Shown here: piece by piece, positions 2,826-6,207 of the stretch
Layout: each line of letters opens with the position of its first letter
Position numbering within the stretch: position 1 is the first letter of the stretch
Assembly (NCBI RefSeq): GCF_014656215.1
Contig: NZ_BNBZ01000005.1
Location: 186,001 to 250,000, forward strand
Reading direction: 5' to 3'
DNA from: Streptomyces zaomyceticus
Lineage (GTDB): Bacteria > Actinomycetota > Actinomycetes > Streptomycetales > Streptomycetaceae
DNA: 64,000 bases
Program-made: the position numbers and the translations under genes
The notes under the pieces: generated by a model
The model's database searches: none
What the model saw: only the letters and a program-made list of their open reading frames with translations
What the model was told of the DNA's origin: nothing

Positions 2826-4193
2826 TCAGGCCAGCAGGGTGAGCCGCGCGTGGGTGCCGTTGAGGTAGTGGTCCCCGATGTCACGGAGGCGGTGGGCCGA
2901 CTGCGTGGGGGCGGTGAGCGCGCGGGCGTTGCGCCAGAAGCGGTCGAAGCCCGGGCCTCCGCCCCGGGCGTCGGCGCCCGCCGTCCCGTCGACGAGTTCG
3001 AGGATGCGGGTGGTGATGTGGACGGCGGCCCGGCCGGTGACCGTCTCGGCCGCGGCCACCAGGACGGCGATGTCGGCCCGTTCCTCCACGCCCAGCGACC
3101 GGGCGGCGAGCAGACCGCGGGTCAGCGCGTCCGTCGCCCGTTCCACCACCGCGGCGGCGGCGTGCGCGGCGGTCGCCAGTTCCCCGTAGGCGAGGAGGAG
3201 GTAGGGATCGTCTCCGCCGCCGACCGCCCCGGAGCCGTCCGGCGTCAGGGACCCCGCCGTGCGGCGTGCCGGAGCCGGCCCCGCCTGATCGGCGCGGCTG
3301 ATGTCGCGGGCCTCGGCGAGCGCTCCCTCGGCGATGCCCAGCCCGACCTGGACCAGGAGGAGTCGCAGGGCCAGCGGGGCGAGGGTGGCGTACGGGGCGA
3401 CGGCGTGCTCGTCGTGGGGGAGTGTGCCCAGGATGTCCTCCGGCGGTACCGGGACATGGTCGAAGGTGACGGTGCCCGCTCCGGCGAGCCGCTGCCCGAC
3501 CCGCTCCGTCCCGGCGTCCGTGTACACCCCGGGCCGTGCCGGATCCACCAGGACCACCAGGAGGTCGCCGGTGCCGCCGGGACGGGCCCCGACGACGAGA
3601 CGGTCGGCCACGGTCACGGCGGAGGCGAAGGTGCGGCTCCCGTCGAGGAACCATCCGCCGCCCGACTCGGCGGGGGTGAGGGTGAGGCCGGGGTCGGCCT
3701 CGGTGCGCGGCGGTTCGACGCCGCCGGCGAGCAGCCAGTGCTCCTCGGCGGTGCGGACGTCGAGCGGGAGGGCGGCCGCGCGAGTGACGTCCGACTCCTG
3801 CGCGGGGCCGAAGAAGCGGCTGCTCCAGGACAGGGCGTAGTGGTGGGCGAGGAGTTCGCCCACGGAACTGTCGGCTGCGGAGATCTCCCGTACGACCGCA
3901 CACGCGGCCCGCCAGTCGGCGCCACGCCGGTTCGGTCCCGGCGCCGTCAGCAGGGCGGGCAGCCCGGCCTCCTGGAGCCGGGCGACCTCGTCGAACGGCG
4001 CTTTGCCGGCCCGGTCCCTGGCGAGGGCGTCGACGGCGAGGTCGTCGGCGAGTTCACGGGTGACGCGGGGCCACAACTCGTCGTCGGCGGGCCGGTCGAC
4101 GGGCCCGCCGGCCGGCCTTCCGGCGGGCCGGGCGTCCGGTGCGGAGACGGTGCGTATCGCGGGTCTCTTCGGCGATTTCCTCGGCGTACTCAC
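2826..4193 (-). CDS. Acyl-CoA dehydrogenase-fold flavoprotein, SfnB/DszC-like
   Basis: 455 aa, GTG start at 4193 after a GAGGTGA ribosome site. The fold is acyl-CoA dehydrogenase: helical N-domain (ARLQEAGLPALL), central beta domain (GGGWFLDGSRTFASAVTVAD) and helical C-domain. The C-terminal signature FDRFWRNARALTAPTQSAHRLRDIGDHYLNG matches the SfnB/DszC branch (flavin-dependent sulfone or organosulfur monooxygenases; WRNAR...H...IG...LNG) rather than beta-oxidation dehydrogenases. A role in scavenging sulfur from organosulfur compounds is therefore inferred. A 32-bp operator-like palindrome lies immediately upstream, and an Rrf2 regulator is the next gene upstream on the same strand. The substrate is unknown. 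Confidence 0.82.
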   Translation of the reverse strand: MSTPRKSPKRPAIRTVSAPDARPAGRPAGGPVDRPADDELWPRVTRELADDLAVDALARDRAGKAPFDEVARLQEAGLPALLTAPGPNRRGADWRAACAVVREISAADSSVGELLAHHYALSWSSRFFGPAQESDVTRAAALPLDVRTAEEHWLLAGGVEPPRTEADPGLTLTPAESGGGWFLDGSRTFASAVTVADRLVVGARPGGTGDLLVVLVDPARPGVYTDAGTERVGQRLAGAGTVTFDHVPVPPEDILGTLPHDEHAVAPYATLAPLALRLLLVQVGLGIAEGALAEARDISRADQAGPAPARRTAGSLTPDGSGAVGGGDDPYLLLAYGELATAAHAAAAVVERATDALTRGLLAARSLGVEERADIAVLVAAAETVTGRAAVHITTRILELVDGTAGADARGGGPGFDRFWRNARALTAPTQSAHRLRDIGDHYLNGTHARLTLLA

Positions 4194-4206
4194 GTCACCT
4201 CACATG

Positions 4207-4238
4207 ATCCCTAGTATTCCCACTGGAATAGTAGGGAT
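4207..4238. promoter_or_regulatory. 32-bp near-perfect palindrome, probable Rrf2 operator
   Basis: The arms read ATCCCTAgTATTCC and GGAATAgTAGGGAT. All outer positions are symmetric except one base pair and the 4-base centre. It lies 14 bp upstream of the flavoprotein start at 4193, downstream of the Rrf2 gene. The TATTCC/GGAATA core resembles dyads bound by Rrf2/CymR-type sulfur regulators. Assignment to the adjacent Rrf2 protein is inferred. Confidence 0.75.
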
Positions 4239-4351: not shown

Positions 4352-4807
4352 TCAGGGGTTGGTCCAGGCCTCCGGGTCGTCCGCGAGCGAGACGATCCCC
4401 TCCGGAAGCCGGGCCGCCGCCACCTCCGCGAGCGAGACCCCGAGCACCTCGCGGACACCGGCGCGGAGCGCGATCCACAGCGTGAGCAGCGACTCGGCCG
4501 GCCCGGTGTACGAGAGGTCCGGCGGGCGCTCCCCGCGCACGGAGACCAGCGGGCCCTCCACGCAGCGGATGACGTCCGCCACCGAGATCGACTCCGCGGG
4601 CCTGGCCAGCCAGTAGCCGCCGTTGCCGCCCCGCTGGCTCTGCACCAGACCGCCCTTGCGCATGTCCCCGAGGATGCCCTCGAGGAACTTGTGCGAGATG
4701 CCCTGGTCCTCGGCGATGGCCTCGGCCTTCAGCGGCCCGGCGTCCTGGGCGGCGGCGAGCTGGAGGGCGGCACGCACCGCGTAATCGGCCCTGGCTGAAA
4801 TGCGCAT
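4352..4807 (-). CDS. Rrf2 family transcriptional regulator
   Basis: 151 aa starting MRISARADYAVRAAL, the typical Rrf2 N-terminus. It has a winged helix (residues ~1-65, SHKFLEGILGDMRKGGLVQSQRGGNGGYWLARP) and a dimerisation helix. Only one Cys is present (VIRCVEG), so it lacks the three-Cys cluster site of IscR/NsrR and is more like the cluster-free CymR type, which controls sulfur metabolism. The ATG at 4807 is preferred over upstream in-frame codons because the conserved family start is there. It is transcribed towards the SfnB/DszC-like gene across a 158-bp gap holding the 32-bp palindrome, which it probably binds. Confidence 0.92.
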   Translation of the reverse strand: MRISARADYAVRAALQLAAAQDAGPLKAEAIAEDQGISHKFLEGILGDMRKGGLVQSQRGGNGGYWLARPAESISVADVIRCVEGPLVSVRGERPPDLSYTGPAESLLTLWIALRAGVREVLGVSLAEVAAARLPEGIVSLADDPEAWTNP

Positions 4808-5346
4808 GCGCGCATTATTCCGTACGCGCGTGAGCGGATCCGTGCGGCCACGACGTGACCCGTGCGCCGCGTGGGGATTCGTGCGCGCGGATCGGGTCCG
4901 GGGCCGGAGGGGAGTGAACCGGGCGCCGGGGAAGTGACCCGTACCGCACCCTTGACGCCGTACGGGACCGGTCCGAGACTCAAGGGCGGGGAAACCGAGC
5001 GAACGGGTAGGGAACCATGGGACGCAGCGGTCGAAAGGACACCTCACTCACCGCACCCCTCCCGCGTTCCCTGCCCCTCACGTCCCGCCGGCACATCGAT
5101 CTGCTGCGGGTCTGCAGTGCGGCGAGTCGAGGTTCCCGCAGGGGCGTCCACCCCGTCCGCTGACACCTACGTCCGCCGACACGCACGTCCGCCGAGACGT
5201 CGCCTCACCGCGCTCAGGCCGTCTCCTCCTTCCCGTACCTCTGCCGCCTCCGGGCCCGTCCGGCCGGTGCCGCCGTCGCGCCTCCGCGACCGGTGCCGCG
5301 CCGCGCGCCGCCCCGACCCGGCACCGAGCACCCTCCAGGGAGAAGC
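4808..5346. other. 539-bp intergenic region between Rrf2 and GST-like genes
   Basis: It contains the divergent promoters of the Rrf2 gene and the leader peptide/GST unit. The only coding feature I can support is the short leader peptide at 5017-5163. The rest, including the 183 bases between the leader stop and the GST start, shows no recognisable motif, though it is long enough to form an attenuator. Confidence 0.5.
5017..5163 (+). CDS. Putative Cys-containing leader peptide (uORF)
   Basis: 48 aa, ATG at 5017 after a TAGGGA ribosome site. The centre reads LTSRRHIDLLRVCSAAS. This TSRxHxDLLRVxSA signature is the hallmark of the short leader peptides found ahead of sulfur-metabolism and redox genes in Streptomyces and mycobacteria, where translation through Cys codons controls the downstream gene. 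Here there is a single Cys (TGC) directly after LLRV. The leader ends 183 bases before the GST-like gene. Cysteine-dependent control of that gene is inferred; the match of the signature is what the sequence shows. Confidence 0.75.
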   Translation: MGRSGRKDTSLTAPLPRSLPLTSRRHIDLLRVCSAASRGSRRGVHPVR

Positions 5347-6207
5347 ATGTCCGTCGTCCCGTCCTCGCTGCTGCCCGCCTCCGCCGTGCCCGCCTTCAGG
5401 GGCCGGATCGGCCGCGACGTGCACAGCGGCCACTACGCGGTGCCCCACCGCTATCGCCTCCACGTCGCGCCCTACGACCCCGGCTGTCTGAGCATCGCCC
5501 TCACCCACAGCCTCCTCGGAATCGACGACACGCTCCCGCTCGCCGTGCTCCCCGAGACCACCGACACGCCCGACGGCGGGTACACCGCCCTCCGCCCGCT
5601 GTACGAGGCGAGCGCGCACCTCTACGACGGTCCGGCCGCCGCGCCCGTCCTCAGCGACGGATGGACCGGACGGATCGTCAGCACCCACGTCCCCGACATC
5701 CTCCGCGACCTCGCCCTCCGCTTCCGCGGCGACGGACCCGAGCTGCTGCCGGAAGGACAGCGGGCCGAGATCGAGGCGATCGGCGACCTGTGCGAGCGGA
5801 GCATCAACAGGGCGGCCCAGCGCGCCGGTGAACTCGGACTGGACGGCGAGGCCGCCCACCGCGACCCCCTCGGCGTCCTCTTCTCGGCCCTCGGCTCCCT
5901 GGAGCGCCGCCTCGTCCGCCACCCCTACGTCCTCGGCGACGCGCCGACCGCCGCCGACGTGCAGGTCTGGGTCACCCTGGTCCAGCTCGACACCGTCCAC
6001 CGCTGGCACCTGGACGCCGCCGCCATGGAACGGGTCGCCGGATACCCGGCCCTGTGGGCCTACGCCCGGCGGCTGGCCGCGCGCCCCGAGTTCGCCCGCC
6101 GGCTCGACATCGAAGGCGTCATGCGACGCCACCGTGCCCACTGCCGGGGCCGCGAGGCCGCGGGCGCGGCGATCCGCCTCGTCGACTGGTCGGGCACGAC
6201 CCGCTGA
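5347..6207 (+). CDS. Glutathionyl-hydroquinone reductase-like (xi-class) GST protein
   Basis: 286 aa; the ATG at 5347 follows AGGGAGAAGC. The N-terminal thioredoxin-like part (residues ~25-95) has YDPGCLSIALTHSLLGI where xi-class enzymes have a CPWAHR catalytic motif. The Cys is kept but the WAHR context is lost. The C-terminal helical GST domain (residues ~115-260) is clear, with RRLVRHPYVLGDAPTAADVQVWVTLVQLD. Because actinobacteria use mycothiol instead of glutathione, the thiol co-substrate is uncertain. It sits behind a Cys-type leader peptide in a locus with other sulfur genes, which supports a role in thiol redox or quinone detoxification. Confidence 0.72.
   Translation: MSVVPSSLLPASAVPAFRGRIGRDVHSGHYAVPHRYRLHVAPYDPGCLSIALTHSLLGIDDTLPLAVLPETTDTPDGGYTALRPLYEASAHLYDGPAAAPVLSDGWTGRIVSTHVPDILRDLALRFRGDGPELLPEGQRAEIEAIGDLCERSINRAAQRAGELGLDGEAAHRDPLGVLFSALGSLERRLVRHPYVLGDAPTAADVQVWVTLVQLDTVHRWHLDAAAMERVAGYPALWAYARRLAARPEFARRLDIEGVMRRHRAHCRGREAAGAAIRLVDWSGTTR

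Follow-up and report, generated by a model that had tools for sequence, protein, structure and literature searches.

A short ORF upstream of a GST gene in Streptomyces zaomyceticus appears, from comparison across related loci, to be a real regulatory leader that is conserved, linked to sulfur and akin, as a variant, to leader families already described. It lies in a 64,000-nucleotide stretch of DNA (NZ_BNBZ01000005.1, positions 186,001 to 250,000; here called the window), and the features of the locus are collected in Table 1. In the reading that we prefer, to which we assign a probability of about 0.5, the ORF would be translated as a cis-acting regulatory leader with relatives among the sulfur leader peptides of Actinobacteria, and the nascent L-T-x-R-x-H-I-D-L-x-R-V-(C/S)-S-A stretch would cause the ribosome to pause near codons 10-14, the pause setting the amount of GST mRNA that is completed or translated. 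Where a Cys codon is present, its being hungry would lengthen the pause, with the peptide as the essential part and the Cys as an option. The likely read-out would be Rho-dependent termination within the C-rich spacer. Transcription would proceed from a conserved promoter. An operator-like site overlaps it, and the neighbouring Rrf2-type regulator probably binds there and would likewise control an SfnB-like gene. Sequence comparison supports the leader itself, selection at the peptide level, tolerance of Cys loss, the promoter-like and operator-like conservation, the C-rich spacer and the sulfur context; we infer translation, pausing, the read-out, Rrf2 binding and the signal.

Table 1. Features of the leader and GST locus, in window coordinates.
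Feature	Position	Strand	Basis
Gene for an SfnB/DszC-like flavoprotein, scoring under both curated cut-offs	2826..4193	-	model matches
More palindromic copy of the operator-like element, 5' of the SfnB-like gene	4217..4237	+	element scan, strict pattern
Divergent Rrf2-family regulator, CymR-like	4352..4807	-	model matches
Promoter-like pair TTGACG-N17-GAGACT (GACACT in most relatives)	4952..4980	+	alignment of 44 upstream regions
Operator-like element AAACCGAGCGAACGGGTAGGGAA	4992..5014	+	conserved, between promoter-like boxes and ATG
Leader ORF, 48 aa, ATG start	5017..5163	+	motif upstream of GST relatives; ATG and frame conserved in alignment
Conserved peptide core LTSRRHIDLLRVCSAAS	5077..5127	+	codon conservation, pN/pS
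Cys codon of the leader core; Ser14 AGT codon	5113-5115; 5125-5127	+	
C-rich, G-poor spacer, leader stop to GST	5164..5346	+	base composition, terminator scan
Xi-class-fold GST, 286 aa, with DPGC replacing the CPWA of xi enzymes	5347..6207	+	sequence, predicted structure

The leader ORF and its GST

The original prediction had placed a leader ORF 183 bases ahead of the GST gene, and this is borne out: the ORF at 5017-5163, whose peptide contains TSRRHIDLLRVCSA, ends with its stop at 5163 and the GST ORF begins at 5347, leaving a gap of 183 nt. In a first sampling, built on relatives of the GST, the leader motif was found 5' of GST in 44 of 49 Streptomyces loci; one of the other five is interrupted by a sequence gap (L053) and four have no such ORF (L039, L046, L048 and L051). 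A profile search of whole genomes recovered the GST from 91 of the 199 Streptomyces genomes searched, with 93 matches. The upstream DNA of 80 of these matches formed a second sampling, which left out the window's own match, three genomes already sampled, fragments, a second copy and two matches at contig ends, and the motif was present at 73 of the 80 loci. The two samplings overlap and pool to 118 leaders, 112 of them distinct after removal of six duplicates, among which the position of the stop codon varies. Scanning the pattern T-x-R-x-H-[IVLM]-D-x-x-R over 1,005,482 six-frame residues from the 49 loci returned 44 matches, all of them GST leaders; because nothing else matched, the motif exceeds what chance would give. 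Among the publications listed from a limited literature collection, none concerned this GST leader, and the one RRHIDL match was unrelated.

The predicted kinship with actinobacterial sulfur leaders also holds, at a distance. The window leader carries the R-x-H-[IV]-D-x-x-R core, a motif as seen in these loci and not a published family definition, and scores 29.3 bits against NF042936 (leader_Ms4527A; cut-off 45) and 25.6 bits against NF042934 (cis_reg_atten; cut-off 27), which makes it a relative below both curated lines. Searched with the cis_reg_atten model, the S. zaomyceticus genome matched at 13 leader loci with E values of 0.01 or lower, the window included. At least 12 other leader-like ORFs (within L090-L102) occur here, mostly 5' of sulfur genes and several of them below the NCBIfam cut-off. 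The genes 3' of these siblings, assigned by Pfam or by eye, include a cysteine dioxygenase, transporters, a flavin reductase and a luciferase-like monooxygenase and, by eye, a sulfur-carrier/cysteine-synthase pair, a sulfite reductase and a thiosulfate sulfurtransferase; a few have no clear sulfur link (ROK, DUF1684, 2OG oxygenase and dicarboxylate symporter). In a class-wide search with the Ms4527A model, R1-x-H3-[IV]4-D5-x-x-R8 was present in 30 of 30 loci read, with one to four Cys after R8; the reading pattern itself fixed R1, [VILM]4, D/E5 and R/K8 and left H3 free.

Sequence and predicted structure (pLDDT 76) agree that the window GST is xi-class-like, as first proposed: in a fold search with the model, the 16 best entries (Z 21.6-23.7) were xi-class or close putative GSTs, and the next class followed at 18.3. 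The protein shares both fold class and sequence family with the xi-class mycothiol transferase MstX of Corynebacterium glutamicum, through the matched C. glutamicum entry 3m1g, which we take to be MstX. The catalytic motif CPWA is absent from the N-terminal region (5449-5526), where DPGC stands instead. MstX requires Cys67 of CPWA according to the accessible part of PMC6815410, and DPGC occupies that place in the window GST. Since this copy is without the xi-class catalytic Cys, the 'thiol chemistry' ascribed to it is unproven. At the catalytic position the window has Asp and closer relatives have Asp, Gly, Thr, Asn or Ala; most of the distant relatives carry CPxC or CPxS. The first Cys is kept in about half of the relatives, which form two groups, one DPxC-like and one CPxC-like. 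In other species the genes next to the GST include sulfatase-like, SsuA/SsuC/TauC-like transporter and MetX genes, and also a glucosidase.

Selection on the peptide and the Cys codon

Purifying selection acts on the peptide core but not on its flanks. In the 97 leaders with Cys at codon 10, pN/pS is 0.08 in the core (0.13 with the positions fixed by the search pattern excluded), and in the two flanking parts of the ORF it is about 1.0; core codons change freely at synonymous sites and keep their amino acids. Outside the search pattern, L-2, T-1 and L6 are invariant in all 112 leaders, and S11 and A12 are kept in 109. The conserved stretch spans only about 15 codons, with the N- and C-termini of the peptide free, and residues far 5' of the Cys are constrained at least as strongly as the Cys itself.

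Codon usage within the core is also uneven. Of 34 first-set leaders, 33 encode Ser14 by the rare codon AGT (3.5% of Ser codons in the neighbouring called genes), and the Asp5 codon is GAT in 65 of the 112 leaders, against a usage of about 7%. Across the pool Ser14 is AGT in 45 of 67 cases and AGC in 21, the latter weakening the idea that AGU serves every leader as the slow codon at position 14.

The original prediction took the Cys codon to be the sensor, a role that the relatives do not sustain. The window leader has a single Cys codon and lacks the Cys run of polycysteine leader attenuators. Codon 10 encodes Cys in 97 of the 112 distinct leaders, Ser in 13 and Arg in two, with the rest of the motif kept, and six changes at this codon map onto the GST tree (111 tips). 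Seven leaders read LTRRLHIDL(L/Q)RVSSAY and then stop where sibling leaders place a Cys codon; in this SSAY class (n = 7) core pN/pS is 0.057 (0.11 at positions that the pattern leaves unfixed), a constraint equal to that of the Cys class. Two additional leaders, L217 and L218, are also Cys-less, and L219 comes from the same genome as L212. If starts near the core are taken, the majority of the 15 ORFs without Cys10 contain no Cys at all; L194, L201, L202 and L208 have one elsewhere in the ORF, and L200, L209, L210 and L215 only far 5' of the core. Taken jointly, the 15 show weaker constraint than the Cys class (pN/pS 0.28; 0.45 at unfixed positions), as would be expected of mixed or partly decaying sets, and therefore some may be drifting. 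No member of the Cys-less class was found outside Streptomyces: out of 394 genomes in the taxonomic class, its query matched four, each a Streptomyces, and one of these matches (L220) has a Cys.

Peptide-level selection and natural Cys loss together favour a role for the nascent chain. Because some relatives keep the peptide without its sole Cys, the peptide sequence, and not just the Cys codon, probably regulates; we favour a Cys that is dispensable for the motif and acts as an optional modulator. The Ser-for-Cys leaders amount to a natural version of the Cys-to-Ser replacement proposed with the original prediction, and naturally Cys-less members could separate peptide-sensor from Cys-codon models.

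The strongest competitor is plain Cys-codon attenuation of the kind reported for mycobacterial polycysteine leaders: a shortage of Cys-tRNA would stall the ribosome at codon 10, and nothing more would be needed to raise GST expression. Homology to Ms4527A-type leaders, the sulfur context and the prevalence of Cys10 agree with it, and given that the accessible parts of PMC9031893 and PMC13236596 describe the experimentally studied relatives from mycobacteria as responsive to Cys, the GST leaders too may as a rule sense Cys. A lone Cys codon, its replacement in 15 otherwise intact motifs and the constraint far 5' of it argue the other way. So does folding prediction: with a ribosome placed at the Cys in silico, the GST Shine-Dalgarno had a mean unpaired probability of 0.141, against 0.151 when free, over 39 of 45 loci (those excluded had no called start, a core-to-start distance above 400 nt or too little upstream sequence), and we rejected its unmasking by a ribosome at the Cys. 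We regard the Cys-codon model as plausible and incomplete, and its sufficiency as doubtful. Attenuation through the GST translation start loses ground on the same predictions, and no intrinsic terminator was found in 4800-5400. Of the interpretation first proposed, the sulfur-linked leader and the xi-class-like GST are supported; the Cys-codon sensor and control at the GST translation start are not.

The spacer and the control region

The spacers at the GST loci are rich in C and poor in G (C 0.50, G 0.29, n = 43) relative to 148 control upstream regions (0.36 and 0.33), a comparison in which the controls include promoter DNA and the statistic ignores relatedness. Those of 10 other leaders in this genome are likewise C-rich and G-poor, and in the SSAY class the C bias is weaker (0.33-0.40 in five of seven). 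Leader translation might merely gate the access of Rho to such a spacer, with no peptide-specific stalling, a scheme in keeping with the base composition at both sets of loci, the missing terminator and the Rho proposal made for mycobacterial cys leaders in the accessible part of PMC1262725. We consider it improbable: it leaves the conservation of the peptide sequence unexplained, and both the variable stop position and the weaker C bias of the SSAY class tell against it. No conserved RNA element was seen by eye 3' of the core, where the sequences diverge right after codon 14, and Rfam gave just one chance miRNA match (E 3.8).

Upstream of the leader, the alignment identified a promoter-like pair (4952..4980) that a general promoter scan did not report. 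An inverted repeat, CCCTTGA...TCAAGGG, was discarded as a candidate because the repeat itself is not conserved; conservation falls on the promoter-like pair and the operator-like site. The operator-like element is retained in leaderless loci L046, L048, L051, L143, L157 and L162, of which L143 apparently has the same sequence as L048; L046, L048 and L051, where the leader is lost and the site kept, have short 5' regions. An element scan returned more palindromic copies beside SfnB-like genes, the strict pattern lying near the SfnB-like start in 26 of the 32 loci that have such a gene. In L161 the GST apparently follows the SfnB-like gene directly, judged by eye. The divergently encoded regulator scores 102.2 against TIGR00738, above the cut-off of 73.3, and 83.5 against the CymR equivalog, below the cut-off of 195. 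Operator-like sites at both genes suggest one regulator, the simplest candidate being the Rrf2 protein encoded between them, and on these sequence grounds 4217-4237 and 4992-5014 probably belong to one Rrf2-type regulon. As an obligatory partner of the leader Rrf2 was rejected, with a match in only 34 of 49 loci, in flanks of about 5 kb. If the preferred reading is true, a xi-class GST whose catalytic Cys is lost in some copies would join a sulfur response together with the SfnB-like gene.

Could the peptide instead act in trans, as a microprotein that binds, for example, the Rrf2 regulator? Conservation at the amino-acid level would be expected of it, but the short conserved stretch with both termini free, the separate, cis-element-like copies 5' of many genes in one genome and the retention of the leader where the fetched flanks show no Rrf2 match make it very unlikely. 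Less probable still is a vestigial or untranslated ORF conserved only through DNA or RNA elements, at which the Ser14 AGT bias (a hint of some nucleotide-level constraint) and the strong DNA conservation immediately upstream might point, and to which the confinement of codon-type conservation to the core and the persistence of the operator-like site without the ORF are opposed.

Comparison with known leader peptides

Seliverstov et al. (2005) predicted leader peptides for cys operons of Actinobacteria and suggested Rho (PMC1262725). As far as the accessible part of that source goes, these leaders resemble the GST leader in having no terminator and a pyrimidine-rich spacer and in the suggested involvement of Rho, and differ in their runs of Cys codons near the stop, in their cys and cbs targets and in their hosts (Mycobacterium, Propionibacterium and Bifidobacterium).

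Closer in sequence are the Cys-rich leaders of the mycobacterial Ms4527A family (NF042936), treated in the accessible parts of PMC9031893, PMC13236596 and PMC9094748. They share with the GST leader the core R-R-H-[IV]-D-x-x-R-V-C-S and the arrangement of a short ORF 5' of a sulfur-linked gene. The GST leader, in contrast, has one Cys or none where they have a Cys run, mostly Ser or a stop at position 14, a longer and variable N-terminus, and a GST as its target. For a polycysteine leader, Canestrari et al. in 2020 reportedly described a stalled ribosome exposing a downstream Shine-Dalgarno. The 'putative leader peptide' domain of cis_reg_atten (NF042934) has the RRHxDLxR motif in common with the GST leader; its siblings read here place Cys at 14 (in L101 just past the matched stretch), whereas the GST leader has Cys10 and Ser14.

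If the peptide is the sensor, widespread leaders thought to count Cys codons become a candidate arrest-peptide family. More tentatively, the RRHxDLxR sulfur leaders of Actinobacteria in general may be arrest peptides: the nascent motif would itself stall the ribosome while a slow codon, be it Cys, a stop or AGU, stands around position 14, and would sense a sulfur metabolite or the thiol state in the exit tunnel. We think this extension possible and on balance unlikely; Cys codons would then be a further means of tuning that GST leaders can do without, and the polycysteine reading of the family would be incomplete. The comparison here is with nascent-chain arrest peptides such as TnaC and SecM, which the GST leader would resemble in short conserved residues that, during the pause proposed here, would occupy the upper part of the exit tunnel.
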